Origin: Thomasclavelia sp.
GTDB lineage: Bacteria; Bacillota_I; Bacilli_A; Erysipelotrichales; Coprobacillaceae
Direction: 5' to 3'
NCBI RefSeq assembly: GCF_017889095.1
Contig: NZ_JAGHEW010000249.1
Coordinates: 1-32,644, forward strand
Length of the DNA stretch: 32,644 bases
Below are positions 4,710 through 18,893 of this stretch, one piece after another. The position numbers and the translations under genes are program-made. Numbering within the stretch: position 1 is the stretch's first letter; each line of letters begins with the position of its first letter. The notes under the pieces are model-generated. The model saw nothing but the letters and a program-made list of their open reading frames with translations. It was not told the origin of the DNA and ran no database searches.

Positions 4710-4722
4710 AGTATCGAAAAAT

Positions 4723-4879
4723 AAGTCTTCAGGGCAGGGTGTAATTCCCGACCGGTGGTAAAAGTCCACGAGCGCAAGCTGAATAGGTGCAATTCCTATA
4801 CCGACAGTAAAGTCTGGATGGAAGAAGAACATAGTTAAAGTGTTTTTGTCGTGAAGATTGTATTTTCATGATTTTTTTA
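4723..4879 (+). promoter_or_regulatory. FMN riboswitch (RFN element) with terminator
   Basis: The aptamer at about 4723-4830 has the hallmark RFN segments: TCTTCAGGGCAGGGTG, TTCCCGACCGGTGGTA, AGTCCACGAGCG, CCTATACCGACAGT and GGATGGAAGAAGAA. Downstream, TCGTGAA (4849-4855) pairs with TTCATGA (4865-4871), with seven T after it, forming an intrinsic terminator. The P1 5' strand AGTCTTC (4724-4730) can instead pair with GAAGATT (4853-4859), inside the terminator's 5' side. FMN binding should hold P1 closed, free that strand and terminate transcription, giving an OFF switch. The aptamer is certain; the antiterminator pairing is inferred. Confidence 0.96.
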
Positions 4880-4897
4880 TTTTTAAGGAGAAATATT

Positions 4898-5545
4898 ATG
4901 AAAAGTACGAAGACAAGAAAATTAGTACTGGCAGCTGTTTTAGCGGCCTTAGCAATGATTTTAGGATTACTGGAGATTCCTTACCCTTTAGCACCATGGT
5001 TGAATTTGGATTTATCAGAAGTGGTCGTGTTAGTAGCAATTTCAATGTTAGGATTTAAAACTGCTTTGTTTGTATGTGTGTGTAAGTTTTTTATTTCCAT
5101 TTTATTTAAAGGACCAGTTGGACCAATTGCGATTGGTCAAATAACGGCTTTGATTGCATCAATGACGATCTGTTTGGTTTATTATTATTTATCAAAGTAT
5201 TTTAAATTAAAAAATGAACTATTAACTTATATTATTAATATGATCATGACGATGTTTGTTTTTGCAATGGTGATGTTTATTTTGAACTATTTATTTGTAA
5301 CCCCAACTTATTTAATGCAAAAACCAATCTGGTATACACAATTGCCATTTGCGGTTGATATTCAGGCGTTTAATCAGCAGTATGGTACTAATATAGCGGT
5401 TCCAGGCTTTCTAAATTTTTTATCATCCTATGGTCAGGCAATCTTCATTATTTATTTTCCGTTTAATTTTATCAAAGGAATTATTTCTGGGATTGTTTAT
5501 TATTTCGTTCGTCCGATTGAAACTAAATTTAAAGAAATATCATAA
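4898..5545 (+). CDS. ribU: Riboflavin transporter RibU (ECF S-component)
   Basis: A 215-residue integral membrane protein with about six hydrophobic helices, the substrate-binding S subunit that works with a shared energy-coupling module (EcfA/A'/T, not in this window) to import riboflavin. The N-terminal RKLVLAAVLAALAMILG helix, the IPYPLAPWLNLDLSEVVVL segment and the KGPVGPI turn are typical of RibU. I chose ATG 4898 because AAGGAG (4885-4890) stands seven bases upstream; an in-frame ATG at 4868 lies inside the riboswitch terminator and has no ribosome binding site. The FMN riboswitch directly upstream independently supports the substrate. It is a single-gene unit ending at a hairpin shared with the convergent ferredoxin gene. 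Confidence 0.95.
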   Translation: MKSTKTRKLVLAAVLAALAMILGLLEIPYPLAPWLNLDLSEVVVLVAISMLGFKTALFVCVCKFFISILFKGPVGPIAIGQITALIASMTICLVYYYLSKYFKLKNELLTYIINMIMTMFVFAMVMFILNYLFVTPTYLMQKPIWYTQLPFAVDIQAFNQQYGTNIAVPGFLNFLSSYGQAIFIIYFPFNFIKGIISGIVYYFVRPIETKFKEIS

Positions 5546-11367: not shown

Positions 11368-11535
11368 ATGGCAGTACCATTTAGACGAGTATCTAGTACA
11401 AAAAGAGATAAGAGAAGAACACATGATAAACTTACAGCTCCTGCTGTAGTTGTTTGTCCAGAATGCGGTGAATACAAATTATCTCATCGTGTTTGCAAAC
11501 ATTGCGGTACTTATAAAGGACAAAAAGTTTTATAA
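11368..11535 (+). CDS. rpmF: 50S ribosomal protein L32
   Basis: A 55-residue protein of the large ribosomal subunit, read as [20 protein letters not shown] followed by a zinc-binding ribbon with four cysteines (C30-x2-C33 in VCPECGEY, C43-x2-C46 in CKHCG) and ending GQKVL. This is the zinc-containing (C+) form of L32, not the cysteine-free paralogue some Firmicutes use under zinc limitation. AGGAGG (11353-11358) overlaps the yceD stop codon and lies nine bases before the ATG. It is cotranscribed with yceD and ends at a strong terminator. Shorter than most open frames but unmistakable. Confidence 0.97.
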
Positions 11536-11548
11536 AATTTGTTTTTTG

Positions 11549-11579
11549 AAGCACTATCTTAATGATAGTGCTTTTTTTT
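11549..11579 (+). terminator. Strong terminator after rpmF
   Basis: AAGCACTATC (11549-11558) pairs with GATAGTGCTT (11564-11573) around TTAAT, with eight T from 11572 on. Confidence 0.93.
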
Positions 11580-11606: not shown

Positions 11607-11635
11607 TATACAAACGAAACAATTAAGTATATAAT
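11607..11635 (+). promoter_or_regulatory. Promoter of the mraZ division/cell-wall cluster
   Basis: TATACA (11607-11612), 17-base spacer, TATAAT (11630-11635). Transcription would begin at about 11642, inside the MraZ box array. Confidence 0.75.
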
Positions 11636-11637
11636 GA

Positions 11638-11682
11638 GTGGTAAGAAGTGTTAAATCGTGGTATGAAGTGTTAAGAAGTGGG
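11638..11682 (+). promoter_or_regulatory. MraZ operator: five GTGKK boxes, exact 10-nt period
   Basis: GTGGT 11638, GTGTT 11648, GTGGT 11658, GTGTT 11668, GTGGG 11678. Boxes alternate between GTGGTAWGAA and GTGTTAARWH contexts, so there is also a 20-nt repeat. MraZ is known to bind short TGGG/GTGG-type direct repeats at its own promoter. The array begins two bases after the -10 element and reaches the ribosome binding site, where a repressor would block transcription. The last box contributes the GGGTGAT Shine-Dalgarno. Confidence 0.85.
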
Positions 11683-11691
11683 TGATTAATA

Positions 11692-12123
11692 ATGTTTATG
11701 GGTCAATTTAAGCATAACATCGACGCCAAAGGGCGTCTTATTATTCCCTCTAAAATAAGAGAGCAATGTGGTGATACAGTTGTGATCACTCGCGGATTAG
11801 ACGGATGTCTAGCTTTATACACGATGGATGGCTGGAATGAATATTACGAAAAATTACACAAATTACCCACAACAAAAAAACAGGCTCGTGATTATGTCAG
11901 AATTGTTACAGCAATGGCTGATGACCTTACTTTTGATAAATTAGGAAGAGTAAATATCTCATCGTTTTTACGAAAAGCCGGAAATTTAGAAAAAGAATGT
12001 ATGATCATTGGAGCTGGTGATCATGTGGAAATTTGGGATAAGGATCGCTGGGAAAGTTATTATGATTTGAAAAAAGATAGTTTTGATGAACTTTGCGAAT
12101 CCCTTGAAGATTTTGATTTATAG
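11692..12123 (+). CDS. mraZ: Transcriptional regulator MraZ
   Basis: A 143-residue DNA-binding protein with two SpoVT-AbrB half-folds. The first carries the family signature MFMGQFKHNIDAKGRLIIPS, the second FDKLGRVNISSFLRK. Known members form ring oligomers that bind tandem short repeats and repress the division/cell-wall cluster. The box array directly upstream (11638-11682) fits autoregulation. ATG 11692 gives the conserved MFMG start; GGGTGAT (11680-11686) is the binding site, and it overlaps the last box. First gene of mraZ-rsmH-ftsL-PBP. Acidic C-terminal tail ESLEDFDL. Confidence 0.97.
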   Translation: MFMGQFKHNIDAKGRLIIPSKIREQCGDTVVITRGLDGCLALYTMDGWNEYYEKLHKLPTTKKQARDYVRIVTAMADDLTFDKLGRVNISSFLRKAGNLEKECMIIGAGDHVEIWDKDRWESYYDLKKDSFDELCESLEDFDL

Positions 12124-12132
12124 GAGAAGAAA

Positions 12133-13077
12133 ATGTTTGAACATGTAACCGTTTTATTAAATGAAGCAGTTGAAGGTTTAAAAATAAAAGAAGATGGTAT
12201 TTATGTTGATTGTACTTTAGGTGGTGCCGGGCATAGTATGGCTATTTTAAAACAGTTGACATCGGGTCATTTATACTGTTTTGATCAGGACCAGACTGCA
12301 ATTGAAGCAGCCAGAAAAAGATTAGCGACAATTAGCGATAACTTTACCATTTTTTACTCCAATTTTGTCAATTTAAAAGCAATGCTGGCAAAGGAAAATA
12401 TCTTTAAAGTTGATGGTATTCTTTTTGATCTAGGGGTGTCTTCACCGCAATTTGATACTGGCGAGCGTGGTTTTAGTTATAATCTAGATGCTCGTTTAGA
12501 TATGCGCATGGATAATGCTAATCCTCTAGATGCTTATACGATCGTTAATACCTGGTCGTATCAGCAAATCGTGGAAATATTATATAAATATGCTGATGAA
12601 AAATTTGCTAAACAGATTGCTCGAAAAATCGAACAAAAACGAAAGCAAAAACCGATCGAAACAACTTTTGAATTAGTTGAAATCATCAAAGAAGCTTTGC
12701 CTGCTTCGGTACTTAAAAAGAAAGGACATCCAGCTAAAAAAACATTCCAGGCTTTACGAATTGCGGTTAATGATGAATTAAATGTATTTGATAAAGCTTT
12801 AAAAGATGCCTTAGATTTATTAAACGTTAATGGACGTATCGCAGTAATAACCTTCCATAGTTTAGAAGATAAAATTTGTAAATATACTTTTAATGATGTT
12901 AGTAAATTAAAAGATGTACCGGCAAATTTGCCGATAATTCCTGATTATTTGCAACCAAAATTTAAATTAGTCAATCGTAAACCGATTGTCGCTAGCGAAG
13001 CTGAATTAAGTGCTAATCATCGGGCGCATTCAGCAAAACTGAGAATAATTGAAAGGGTGGTCGAAGATGAAACATAG
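12133..13077 (+). CDS. rsmH: 16S rRNA (cytosine(1402)-N(4))-methyltransferase RsmH
   Basis: SAM-dependent enzyme that methylates N4 of C1402 in 16S rRNA at the ribosomal P site. 314 residues, normal length. Motifs: [10 protein letters not shown] at the N-terminus, SAM loop [10 protein letters not shown] (about 26-35), [11 protein letters not shown] (about 99-109), [17 protein letters not shown] and [10 protein letters not shown] (catalytic region), ending [14 protein letters not shown]. All family motifs look intact. AGGAGA (12122-12127) overlaps the end of mraZ. Its 3' end overlaps the ftsL start by 11 bases, so the genes are translationally coupled. Confidence 0.98.
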
Positions 13078-13363
13078 AAAAAAAAGAACAAAATTTGAAG
13101 CTTTTGCCCAAAGATTTTTGGTCATTACAACTGTTGTTTTTATTTTTGGGCTAATTGGCGTTAAATCAATGGAATCACAATATAATCGTAATGTCCAGGA
13201 GTTAGAAAAAGAAATCGAAACATTAGAAAGTGAAATTGATAGTCTTGAAATGCAAAAACAAGAATTAGCATCATTTTCACGTTTAAATGCTGTTGCTAGT
13301 GAAAAAGGATATACATACAGTAATGATGCCGTAGCTGCCTCTGCTACTGTTCCAAGTGAATAA
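13067..13363 (+). CDS. ftsL: Cell division protein FtsL-like
   Basis: A 98-residue bitopic membrane protein: a basic cytoplasmic N-terminus (KHRKKRTK), one transmembrane segment (about 15-35, [16 protein letters not shown]), and an extracytoplasmic leucine-zipper-like coiled coil ([20 protein letters not shown]), as in FtsL/FtsB proteins that form the septal complex with DivIC and the septal transpeptidase. The sequence itself is weakly conserved; the call rests on topology and on its position between rsmH and the PBP gene. ATG 13067 is preferred because AAAGGGTGG (13052-13060) is six bases upstream; a TTG at 13049 lacks a site. Its stop overlaps the PBP start (TAATG). Confidence 0.88.
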
Positions 13364-15498
13364 TGAAACAATTTAAAAGTGCGACAATTGCCTATATTGT
13401 TTTTGCGTTAGTTATTTTTGCTTTAGTTACTAATATTGTTTATCTGGGAGTAAGTGGAAAACATTTAATTAGTGGCGAGGATATTGCCGCTTTTGCTCAA
13501 TCAAGAGGCAAGGCAAAAACGGTTGAATATGCTAAACGTGGTGAAATAATAACGAGTGATAACCAGGTAGCTGCCTCAACAGTAAAAAAATATAAATTAA
13601 TTGCAATTTTATCAAGTGATCGAATCAATTTTAGTAAAAAAGCAGCTTATGTTGAGGATATTGTGGCGACAGCTAATGCCATTGCGCCGATTATTGGAAT
13701 GGATCCTACGGTCATGGCTAACCAAATGCAAGAAAAAGCTAATGCTGGAGCATACCAGGTTGAATTTGGAAGCTATGGCAATAATTTAAGTGCTAATACT
13801 AAAAAACAAATCGAAGCTTTAAATCTATCCGGATTAGAATTCCAGGAAAGCAATTCTCGGAATTATCCTTATGGTGATTTTTGCAGTTATATTATTGGCT
13901 ATGCTAAATCTTATGAAGAAGACAGTGTCAAAAAATTAGTTGGGGAAATGGGATTAGAAGCAATTTATGATGACACATTAGCTGGTGAAAATGGTTATAA
14001 ATTGTACCAGAAAGATTCTAAAGGTTATATTTTGCCAAATGGAATCTTGGAAGAAAAAGAGGCTAAAAATGGTGAAACTATTTATTTAACGATCAATAGC
14101 ACATTACAAAGAGAACTAGATTATCAATTAGCTCAAGAAGCAGCGGCTGCGGGTGCATCCAAAGCTTCATGTACGATCATGGAAGCTAAAACTGGTAAGA
14201 TTTTAGCAACTTCGACTTACCCGTCTTTTGATCCAAATCAGCGAAATATAACTGATTATAAGAATTTCTTATTCGATACTGCTTATGAATGCGGATCGGT
14301 TTTTAAAACATTTCCGTATGCAAGCTCAATCGAAAGTGGTTTGTATAATGGACAGGCTACATACGAATCAGGAACTTATGATTATGGTGCCAGTCGACCA
14401 ATTCACGATCACAACAATGGTGCTGGATGGGGTACGATTACTTTTGATGAAGGTTTCTATCGTTCCAGCAACGTGGCAATTTGTAACTTGTTAGAACGTG
14501 GTTATACTAACCGTGATGAAGTAGTGCAAACATACCAGGATCTAGGCTTTTTCCAATCAGCTACTGTTGATGGTTTTGATGCTGCAGCTGGAGTAGCTTT
14601 ATATGAAAGTGATGATAGTCGGGCTGCTTATTTAACAACCGGTTTTGGCCAAGGTTCGACAGTAACTTCATATCAGTTATTAAAAGCGTATAGTGCTTTT
14701 GCAAACGATGGAAAAACCGTTGATCCATATTTGGTAGAACGGGTTGTTAATAACGAAACTAATGAAGTTACTTATTCAGCTAAAACAAATTATTCAAGTC
14801 AAATTTTTTCTACGGAAACAGTAAATCAAATTCGCGATTTATTAAAAGGAGTAGTTAGTGATACAACCGGTACTGGTAAAAAGTTTGCATTAACTAATGG
14901 AGTGCAAATGATTGGTAAAACGGGAACTGGTCAATTAGTTGAAAATGGAGCTTATTCTTCAACTAATTATACTAAGTCATTTATGGGAATGGCTCCTTAT
15001 GAAGACCCTCAAATTATTGTTAATATTGTCTTCCAGGGGCCGGATAATGATACAACGACACATCAGGCAAATGTGATTCAAAATGTTATACCAACAGCTT
15101 TGTCAATTGTATCATCATATAATGCTAGTGAAATAACTACTAGCAACGATTATCAATTAGATTCATTTACTAATCAAAGCATAGCTTTTGTAAAAGCTAA
15201 ATTAGAATCAAAATCATTGAATGTCGTAACAATTGGTAATGGCTCTTCGGTTGTTGAACAATACCCGGAAGCAGCGACTAAAGTAACCAAAAATGATCGT
15301 GTCTTTTTAAAGACTGAATCACCAGATATTACTTTACCTAATTTTACCGGCTGGTCGCGTAAAGATGTATTAACCTATGCATCGTTATCGGGATTAAATA
15401 TTACGATTGACGGTCAAAGCGGTCAGGTAGTTAATCAAAGTCTACCGGAAGGAACTGTTGTTCATGCTGGTGATGTTTTAGTAATTGCAATTCAGTAA
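13363..15498 (+). CDS. Septal class B penicillin-binding protein with two PASTA domains (PBP2B/FtsI type)
   Basis: A 711-residue peptidoglycan transpeptidase anchored by an N-terminal helix (about 7-29). Then a dimerisation/pedestal domain, the transpeptidase domain with S312-x2-K (SVFK), S368-S369-N370 and K519-T-G (KTGTG), and two C-terminal PASTA repeats (about 598-653 and 656-711). Size and two PASTA repeats match B. subtilis PbpB, the septal enzyme, encoded in the same place. It would work with FtsL and FtsW in septal wall synthesis. The start overlaps the ftsL stop. It ends in a terminator hairpin that begins on the stop codon, separating it from the spoVD-like gene. The usual EPGSTFK sequence around the active serine is ECGSVFK here. 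Confidence 0.93.
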   Translation: MKQFKSATIAYIVFALVIFALVTNIVYLGVSGKHLISGEDIAAFAQSRGKAKTVEYAKRGEIITSDNQVAASTVKKYKLIAILSSDRINFSKKAAYVEDIVATANAIAPIIGMDPTVMANQMQEKANAGAYQVEFGSYGNNLSANTKKQIEALNLSGLEFQESNSRNYPYGDFCSYIIGYAKSYEEDSVKKLVGEMGLEAIYDDTLAGENGYKLYQKDSKGYILPNGILEEKEAKNGETIYLTINSTLQRELDYQLAQEAAAAGASKASCTIMEAKTGKILATSTYPSFDPNQRNITDYKNFLFDTAYECGSVFKTFPYASSIESGLYNGQATYESGTYDYGASRPIHDHNNGAGWGTITFDEGFYRSSNVAICNLLERGYTNRDEVVQTYQDLGFFQSATVDGFDAAAGVALYESDDSRAAYLTTGFGQGSTVTSYQLLKAYSAFANDGKTVDPYLVERVVNNETNEVTYSAKTNYSSQIFSTETVNQIRDLLKGVVSDTTGTGKKFALTNGVQMIGKTGTGQLVENGAYSSTNYTKSFMGMAPYEDPQIIVNIVFQGPDNDTTTHQANVIQNVIPTALSIVSSYNASEITTSNDYQLDSFTNQSIAFVKAKLESKSLNVVTIGNGSSVVEQYPEAATKVTKNDRVFLKTESPDITLPNFTGWSRKDVLTYASLSGLNITIDGQSGQVVNQSLPEGTVVHAGDVLVIAIQ

Positions 15499-15543: not shown

Positions 15544-17445
15544 ATGATTTATGAATTGACAAGAAAGAAAATTAGGTTAGTAAAAATTATAACGATAATC
15601 ATAATTTTAGCGATCATTTTAAAAATCAGTTATATCCAAATTATTGACCGTGTTAATATTTATAATAAAGCCGTTGATTTGTGGCAACGCAGTTTTCCGG
15701 TTGAAGCTAATCGCGGTTTAATTTTAGATAGTGATAATAATGTATTAGCTACTAATTTAACGACTGCTTCTTTAGTGGTCGTACCTAGTCAAATTAAAGA
15801 TGTTGTCGATACTGCTCATAAACTAGCTGAAATCTTGAATGTTGATGTAAAAACAATGGAAGAAAAAATAAGTAAAAATGTTTCTATTCAACGTATTCAG
15901 CCTGAAGGAAGGCAGTTAGATGATGAAACTGCAGCTAGGATCGATCGTTTAAAACTAGCTGGTGTATATTTGATCAAAGATACCAAAAGATATTATCCTA
16001 ATGGCAGTTATTTAGGGCAGACTTTAGGTTTTGTGGGAATTGATAATCAAGGATTATTAGGGTTAGAATTAAAATACGATGCTTATTTAAATGGTAATAA
16101 TGGCAGTATCAATTATTTTATGGATGCTAAAAGTAATCCCGTATCTTTATACCCAAGTATATATAACGCTCCTACTAGCGGTTTTAATCTGCAGCTTACA
16201 ATTGATGGTGATATTCAAGATATTGTTGAACGTGAATTAGATAATGCCTATGATACGTATGATCCAGATGGTATTTGGGCATTAGCGATGGATCCTAATA
16301 CGGGTAAGATCCTGGCAATGGCTAGTAAACCTGATTTTGATCCTAATGATTATCAAAATGCAGATCCTGATGTCTATAATCAAAATATTCCCATTTGGAA
16401 ATCTTATGAACCAGGTTCTACTTTTAAGATCATAACTTTTTCATCAGCACTAAATGAAAACTTATTTGATATGGATAAAGATACTTATTATGATCAGGGT
16501 TATGAAATAGTTGGCGGAGCTAGAATTAAATCATGGAAAAAAGGTGGTCATGGTTTGCAGACATTTAGAGAAGTTCTGCAAAACTCATCAAACCCAGGAT
16601 TTGTAGAAATTGGCCGGCGTTTAGGTAAAGAAAAACTCTATGAATATGTAAAAAAATTTGGTTTAACCGAAAAAACAGATATTGATTTACCTGGTGAATC
16701 AAAAGGGATTATGTTTGATTACGAAAATTTTAACGAGCTAGAACAAGCTACTGTTGCTTTTGGCCAAGGTATTTCAATTACCCCATTGCAGTTAGTTCGG
16801 GCTGTTTGTGCCTGTGTTAATGGTGGCACTTTATATCAGCCTTATATTGTTGAAAAGATCATTAATAATTATTCTAATGATATTATTTATGAAAAACAGC
16901 CTAATGCCTTATATCAGGTTATTAGTGAAGAAACCTCAGCTAAAGTTAGAGATGCCTTAGAAACTGTCGTAACTGATGGTGGAGGTCGTAATGCTTATAT
17001 CGACGGTTATCGAATTGGTGGTAAAACGGGAACGGCTCAAAAAGCAGTTAATGGCAGTTATGTTGATGGCGGTTATATTTTATCATTTATTGGCATTGCT
17101 CCTATTGATGATCCACAGATTGTTTTATATGTAGCGATGGATAATCCCAAAAACTGTGTGCAATATGGGGGAACGACTGTTGCACCAATCGCTCGAAAAA
17201 TGTTAGTTGATATTTTACCAGCTATGAATATTGAAAAAGTAAGCAAACAAAGAGAGAAAAGTGAAAATGTGTTAGATATTAAAACAATCAAGGTTGAAAA
17301 CTATATTGGTAAAAGTAAAAAAGAAGTAAGTAATCCGGAATTAAAATTTGAATTTATTGGTGAAGGTGATCAAGTAATTGATCAATTACCACGAGTTGGC
17401 GAATATGTTGATGCTGGCTCGACAATTGTGATCATGTTAGGGTAG
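15544..17445 (+). CDS. spoVD: Class B penicillin-binding protein, SpoVD type (one PASTA domain)
   Basis: A 633-residue transpeptidase: short cytoplasmic N-terminus, TM helix (about 13-30), pedestal domain, catalytic domain with S292-x2-K (EPGSTFK), S348-S349-N350 and K494-T-G (GGKTGTAQK), and one PASTA repeat (about 582-633). Length and the single PASTA match SpoVD, the spore-cortex PBP, which in Bacillus follows pbpB as here. AGGTGAT precedes ATG 15544. A terminator separates it from the preceding PBP gene, which fits separate, perhaps sporulation-specific, expression, as known for spoVD. It could instead be a second vegetative PBP2-like enzyme; sequence alone does not exclude that. The murE, mraY and murD genes that normally follow are absent. 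Confidence 0.82.
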   Translation: MIYELTRKKIRLVKIITIIIILAIILKISYIQIIDRVNIYNKAVDLWQRSFPVEANRGLILDSDNNVLATNLTTASLVVVPSQIKDVVDTAHKLAEILNVDVKTMEEKISKNVSIQRIQPEGRQLDDETAARIDRLKLAGVYLIKDTKRYYPNGSYLGQTLGFVGIDNQGLLGLELKYDAYLNGNNGSINYFMDAKSNPVSLYPSIYNAPTSGFNLQLTIDGDIQDIVERELDNAYDTYDPDGIWALAMDPNTGKILAMASKPDFDPNDYQNADPDVYNQNIPIWKSYEPGSTFKIITFSSALNENLFDMDKDTYYDQGYEIVGGARIKSWKKGGHGLQTFREVLQNSSNPGFVEIGRRLGKEKLYEYVKKFGLTEKTDIDLPGESKGIMFDYENFNELEQATVAFGQGISITPLQLVRAVCACVNGGTLYQPYIVEKIINNYSNDIIYEKQPNALYQVISEETSAKVRDALETVVTDGGGRNAYIDGYRIGGKTGTAQKAVNGSYVDGGYILSFIGIAPIDDPQIVLYVAMDNPKNCVQYGGTTVAPIARKMLVDILPAMNIEKVSKQREKSENVLDIKTIKVENYIGKSKKEVSNPELKFEFIGEGDQVIDQLPRVGEYVDAGSTIVIMLG

Positions 17446-17606: not shown

Positions 17607-18893
17607 GTGGACCCGAGTCAGATAGTTAATATTATTGTGTTTTTTATTTTAATTGCTTTATCAGGTGTTTTTTCCTGCTCTGAAACAGCTTTTTTATCAT
17701 CAAATAAAATTAGGATGCGGAATTTAGCCCAGGAAGGTGATGGGCGTGCTAAAACGGTAATTAAGCTTTTAGAAAATAGTGATCGTTTGTATAGTTCTAT
17801 TTTAGTAGGTAATAACTTAGTAAATATTGGAGCATCTTCATTAACGACATCGATCGTAATTGGCATCTTTGGTAACTCTGCAACGTTGGTTGCCGCTGCT
17901 TCCGGGGTAGTTACATTTATGATCTTAGTTTTTGGTGAAATTACTCCAAAGACTTTTGCTACTAAAAATGCCGATCGGCTAGTTTTGTTTCTTTCAAGAT
18001 TTGTAGCGTTTATTTGTTTTATTTTTACACCAGTAGTCTTTTTATTAAACATCATTACTGGTTTTATTATCAAAATGTTAGGTGGTAATAAAAATCCCGG
18101 ACCGACGATGACTGAAGAAGAATTAAAAACCATCGTTACTGTTGGTCATGAAGAAGGGGTATTGGAAGAAGAAGAAAAGGAAATGATTCATAATGTATTT
18201 GAATTTGGTGAAACTGAAATCAAAGAAATTATGACTCCAAGAATTAATGTTGATAGTATTCCTGATGATTGCAGTTATGAAGAACTGATGGATATTTATA
18301 AACGGGGACAGTTTTCACGTTACCCTGTACATAGTGAAAGTTTTGATGAAATCGTTGGGGTATTAAACGTTAAAGACTTATTATTCTTTAATATCGATCC
18401 TGAAAAGTTTGAAGTAAAAGATTACATGCGGGATACTTTTGTAGTTTATGAATTTAATGAAGTTGGTGATGTCTTTGCTTCAATGCGTAAAGAACATGTT
18501 TCTCTTGCAATTGTTTTAGATGAATATGGTGTAATGAGCGGGATCGTCACTTTTGAAGATATCGTTGAAGAAATTGTCGGTGAAATTGATGATGAATATG
18601 ATGATGAAGAAGACGATATGGTAATTAAGTTAAGTGAAAATGAATTTTTAATTGATGGCAGCTTGAATTTAGGTGAAGTTAATGATAAAGTAGGTACCGA
18701 CTTTGATTCGGAGGATTTTGAATCAATCGGCGGTTTGGTATTAGGTGAGGTTTCTGGAGTACCAGAAATTGATGATGAAGTCCAAATTGATAATGTTTTA
18801 TTTAGAATTGTAAAAATGCATAAAAATCGAATTGCTCAATTGAAAGTTACTATTTTAGAAAATGAAGAGGAAAAAGAAGGAGAGCATGATTAG
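17607..18893 (+). CDS. CNNM/CorC-HlyC family membrane protein (divalent cation transporter-like)
   Basis: A 428-residue protein. The N-terminal DUF21/CNNM transmembrane domain (about 1-145) has SGVFSCSETAFLSSNKIR and FGEITPKTFATKNADR. A linker and paired CBS domains follow (about 205-325; MTPRINVDSIP, DEYGVMSGIVTFEDIVEEIVG). Then an acidic stretch (DDEYDDEEDD) and the C-terminal CorC_HlyC domain (about 345-420). Relatives are linked to Mg2+ export; the older name is hemolysin-like. GTG 17607 is needed for the conserved N-terminal helix, but AAGGAG (17589-17594) is 12 bases away. An out-of-frame ATG at 17597 opens a 10-codon ORF over the start (see findings). It has its own promoter and a terminator over its stop codon. 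Confidence 0.92.
   Translation: MDPSQIVNIIVFFILIALSGVFSCSETAFLSSNKIRMRNLAQEGDGRAKTVIKLLENSDRLYSSILVGNNLVNIGASSLTTSIVIGIFGNSATLVAAASGVVTFMILVFGEITPKTFATKNADRLVLFLSRFVAFICFIFTPVVFLLNIITGFIIKMLGGNKNPGPTMTEEELKTIVTVGHEEGVLEEEEKEMIHNVFEFGETEIKEIMTPRINVDSIPDDCSYEELMDIYKRGQFSRYPVHSESFDEIVGVLNVKDLLFFNIDPEKFEVKDYMRDTFVVYEFNEVGDVFASMRKEHVSLAIVLDEYGVMSGIVTFEDIVEEIVGEIDDEYDDEEDDMVIKLSENEFLIDGSLNLGEVNDKVGTDFDSEDFESIGGLVLGEVSGVPEIDDEVQIDNVLFRIVKMHKNRIAQLKVTILENEEEKEGEHD

Follow-up and report, generated by a model that had tools for sequence, protein, structure and literature searches.

A putative five-slot MraZ operator at the mraZ promoter of a Thomasclavelia species and its family

The window, i.e., the whole 32,644-nt stretch of Thomasclavelia sp. 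DNA analyzed here, contains an mraZ gene with a dcw cluster behind it (Table 1). The protein encoded by mraZ has the two MraZ domains typical of the family, with a DXXXR motif in each, and its closest solved structures are MraZ proteins (PDB codes 1n0e and 9qlr were matched). A literature search found no papers accompanying the MraZ entries 9qlg, 9qlr and 9sx6. The nearest named relative of the source genome is Erysipelatoclostridium sp. An173, whose MraZ is 89% identical. A CNNM/CorC-type transporter gene (17607-18893) follows the pair of penicillin-binding protein (PBP) genes, so mraY, murD and ftsW are not adjacent and the dcw cluster is a short one. Elsewhere in the window, an FMN riboswitch (RF00050, 111 bits) is located at 4721-4833, upstream of an open reading frame at 4868-5545.

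Table 1. Features in and around the mraZ leader (positions in the window).
Feature	Position	Strand	Remarks
rpmF (ribosomal protein L32), end of preceding operon	11368-11535	+	Pfam PF01783, E=4e-27
Intrinsic terminator between rpmF and mraZ	11548-11574	+	11-pair stem-loop, then T run
-35 hexamer TATACA (predicted)	11607-11612	+	17-nt spacer to TATAAT; CTATACA recurs in relatives
-10 hexamer TATAAT (predicted)	11630-11635	+	1-2 nt before box 1 throughout the family
MraZ box 1, GTGGT	11638-11642	+	GTG and TG core invariant in 21 five-slot relatives
MraZ box 2, GTGTT	11648-11652	+	GTGT invariant, 21/21
MraZ box 3, GTGGT	11658-11662	+	Differs most among relatives (GTG or ATG); TG invariant
MraZ box 4, GTGTT	11668-11672	+	ATGT in many other genera; TG invariant
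MraZ box 5, GTGGG	11678-11682	+	Overlaps Shine-Dalgarno; GTGG invariant, 21/21
Shine-Dalgarno GGTGAT for mraZ	11681-11686	+	5 nt before ATG at 11692; matches TAAGGAGGTGATC (complement of assumed 16S 3' end)
mraZ, 143 aa	11692-12123	+	PF02381 twice; DAKGR and DKLGR (DXXXR) motifs; PDB 1n0e, E=1.4e-23
rsmH (mraW), 16S rRNA methyltransferase	12133-13077	+	PF01795, E=5e-127
ftsL-like gene	13049-13363	+	Weak DivIC match below curated cut-off; position
Two tandem class B PBP genes with PASTA domains	13363-15498, 15544-17445	+	PF00905, PF03717, PF03793; PASTA match in the second gene below cut-off

Five boxes, GTGGT, GTGTT, GTGGT, GTGTT and GTGGG, succeed one another in the mraZ leader at steps of exactly 10 nt. 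On re-reading the window directly, we found every box position and the period given in the original prediction to be exact. When up to three mismatches were allowed, a search for five GTGK cores at 10-nt steps returned the array as its one match in the window, against 0.01 expected from shuffles. In the 3.19-Mb assembly, exact GTGK arrays of four boxes and of three boxes occur solely within this array (the reversed control gave 0), and about 2e-5 to 6e-5 five-box arrays are expected per genome. A chance origin of the array is excluded. Scans of the assembly for a wider MraZ regulon, using three-box and degenerate five-slot patterns, recovered the mraZ site plus isolated matches at about the reversed-control rate.

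The placement of the array is also that of a MraZ operator. These operators are recognized by direct repeats of a GTG core with a 10-nt period and by a position at the promoter of mraZ and the dcw cluster; the array has both, and the same position is seen in relatives. Its first box begins 2 nt past the TATAAT of a predicted promoter, TATACA-17-TATAAT (11607-11635), which agrees with the consensus at 10 of 12 positions. From there it occupies the mraZ leader into the Shine-Dalgarno sequence. The array lies downstream of the predicted -10 box and over a start site that is itself predicted, near 11642-11643. The last box had been described as part of the ribosome binding site, and this is borne out by box 5 running into GGTGAT. 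The overlap is nothing special: it is widespread in the class and also occurs in E. coli. Because MraZ binds DNA, the overlap most simply reflects the resemblance of GTGGG to a Shine-Dalgarno sequence, rather than translational control. It had also been proposed that the evenly phased boxes face one side of the helix. A turn of B-DNA takes 10.5 bp, not exactly 10, and at this pitch a 10-nt step drifts by about 17 degrees per box and about 69 degrees across the five boxes. Thus, the boxes lie roughly, and not exactly, on one side.

To place the array among its relatives, mraZ upstream regions were compared in 55 relatives and 40 further genomes of the class. The repeats are retained in related species, a comparison that the original prediction had itself called for. 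Within the genus, each of the nine genomes carries five slots spaced by exactly 10 nt, and in the family five slots are present in 27 of 34 mraZ upstream regions and four slots in the remaining 7 (one genome, G019, was added by eye because an overlapping GTGG misled the script). The distance from box 1 to the last box is exactly 40 bp in 21 of the five-slot regions, which come from nine genera, and 41 bp in 6, each of these 6 having at least one degraded inner slot. Three or four boxes predominate in the other family of the order. Genomes sampled from the wider class have two to four in most cases, and a distant one (G364) has five, of which the first overlaps the promoter region. An exact search across the class found five intact boxes at mraZ in only 3 of 395 genomes, the remaining matches being simple repeats; this strict pattern misses those related species whose inner boxes read ATGT. 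Judged by these upstream regions, the five-slot operator is a trait of the family and not of the source species.

Several variants were seen in the course of this comparison. The 41-bp operators, in which an inner slot is degraded, belong to L052, L064 and L067 (genus g11) and to G020, G027 and G017. Those of genus g11 consist of two box pairs set 21 bp apart, i.e., two exact helical turns. In L045 (G011), the fourth in-register box is formed by the GTG with which mraZ presumably starts. In addition, one genome has, besides a full mraZ, a further MraZ-like frame (about 78 aa) with a single domain (L091, G055:C3:89632-89823).

Evolutionary constraint on the box cores, a further mark of a MraZ operator, is evident in the 21 genomes with exactly 40 bp between the outer boxes, which represent 9 genera. 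None of the five slots departs from TG in its core, and the spacers vary. In slots 3 and 4, the base before TG is G or A, and the box often reads ATGT. On average, genera are 75% identical to one another over the array, compared with 41% over an equal stretch upstream of the -35 hexamer. These genomes were chosen by the -10 hexamer, box 1 and the last box. The conservation of slots 1 and 5 alone proves little, because the promoter and the Shine-Dalgarno sequence constrain them as well. The inner slots were not used in the selection, and their TG is nevertheless invariant. This argues that all five slots are probably in use, with slots 3 and 4 the weaker ones. The proposal of a five-slot MraZ operator directly before a genuine mraZ is supported at the sequence level, and the five slots are kept in relatives. 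The two alternating box types that were pointed out are real in the source genome. Their reading as a design feature is not supported, since the alternation GGT/GTT breaks down within the genus itself: the eight other species have GTGTT, GTGAT or ATGTT in slot 3. For this reason we reject the alternation as a code.

Very probably, the array is the operator through which MraZ represses the operon that encodes it, mraZ-rsmH-ftsL-pbp. In this reading, each GTGK box would serve as the recognition element for one DXXXR-bearing subunit of an MraZ ring, and the 10-bp step would let several subunits bind cooperatively on approximately one face of the DNA. Box 1 is located between the -10 hexamer and the predicted start, and boxes 2-5 would cover the first ~40 transcribed bases, so that bound MraZ would block open-complex formation or early elongation, resulting in negative autoregulation. 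Slots 1, 2 and 5 would be strong, and the inner slots 3 and 4 weaker, with ATGT tolerated. Since the array covers the predicted start and is the sole one in the genome, local negative autoregulation, by occlusion or as an early roadblock, is the best reading. We infer MraZ binding and repression at the array, together with the ring mode, the stoichiometry and the start site. It may be that a single ring reaches just four of the boxes. We are doubtful of a further proposal, that the five-slot operator of the family represents a different engagement of MraZ from that at three- or four-repeat sites. Here, five subunits of the ring would sit on the DNA, or the ring would slide between two overlapping four-box registers, boxes 1-4 blocking the promoter and boxes 2-5 covering the leader, with the weak inner boxes setting the balance.

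The same operator could in principle be used for activation, with bound MraZ recruiting or stabilizing RNA polymerase. MraZ overexpression in M. gallisepticum is associated with raised FtsZ and filaments (cited in PMC8475190), and the sign of regulation may differ for that reason. We consider activation improbable at this locus, since the whole array follows a near-consensus -10 hexamer and covers the predicted start, which is a blocking position. Moreover, MraZ is a repressor in M. genitalium, where deletion of mraZ raises rsmH (mraW) and ftsZ transcripts, and in E. coli, and the B. cenocepacia site is equally downstream (PMC8475190, PMC7761207).

It is highly improbable that the repeats have no regulatory role at all, being a 20-bp tandem repeat made by chance or slippage with box 5 merely a Shine-Dalgarno sequence. 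The boxes do form two 20-nt units, and 20 of 25 comparable positions match at a 20-nt shift. However, slot 3 holds GTGTT in the nearest relative (G002, MraZ identity 89%). This contradicts an origin by duplication, and a single base change explains the seeming 20-nt unit better. Furthermore, the boxes are conserved across genera, the TG cores persisting in 9 of them while the spacers diverge. A role as RNA or single-stranded DNA, through a leader structure or a G-quadruplex as at S. aureus mraZ, is scarcely credible either, though the array is transcribed from the predicted start and G-rich on one strand, and such a G-quadruplex has been described in S. aureus, downstream of the mraZ promoter (PMC11796246). 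The leader RNA folds no better than shuffles (z=0.29) and the DNA strand has no fold. Only three GG tracts are present (one is GGG), which is too few for a G-quadruplex, and the G4Hunter score is 0.58; G tracts are scarcer still in relatives with ATGT boxes. As a separate observation, the S. aureus motif sits where MraZ boxes would be expected, and it may coincide with them.

Taken as an MraZ operator, the array is real, conserved and of a known kind, a modest five-slot variant within one bacterial family. It does not change the accepted view of what MraZ does. It is a structural question how a ring-shaped protein recognizes boxes arranged in a straight line. Orthologous mraZ genes of a single family are preceded by four-slot, five-slot and 41-bp operators (two boxes, a gap and two boxes, or similar). 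This natural series, in which the main value of the finding lies, is suited to testing how affinity and cooperativity depend on the number of boxes and their helical phase.

Described MraZ sites have three or four boxes, and the array adds one or two. The original prediction had cited the same range, in agreement with PMC5282649 (three) and PMC7761207 (four). The M. gallisepticum site is given as (AAAGTGKN3)3 in PMC5282649, and in M. genitalium the motif is present solely at the mraZ promoter (PMC8475190). Our array resembles these Mollicutes sites in its GTGK core, 10-nt period and A-rich 5' flank (AAGTG), as well as in its position at the mraZ promoter as an apparently single target. The Mollicutes differ in having three repeats in the quoted core site, compared with five slots here, and a sign of regulation reported as mixed. 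P-mra of B. cenocepacia, for which MraZ binding to a site fragment was demonstrated by EMSA, has four 7-nt repeats with 3-nt spacers downstream of the -10 and over the start site (PMC7761207). The two arrays are alike in their direct repeats, 7+3 nt period and place downstream of the -10 over the start site, which is predicted in our case. They differ in that P-mra has four repeats and a 100-nt leader, whereas the present array has five boxes and a leader of about 50 nt. In E. coli MG1655, we read three GTGGG boxes at 10-nt steps upstream of mraZ, followed by an in-register GGGGT. Here too, 10-nt direct repeats stand between promoter and gene, though the three E. coli boxes are all of the strong GTGGG type. 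The fourth in-register element of E. coli merges with the Shine-Dalgarno sequence, just as the last box of the present array overlaps its own.
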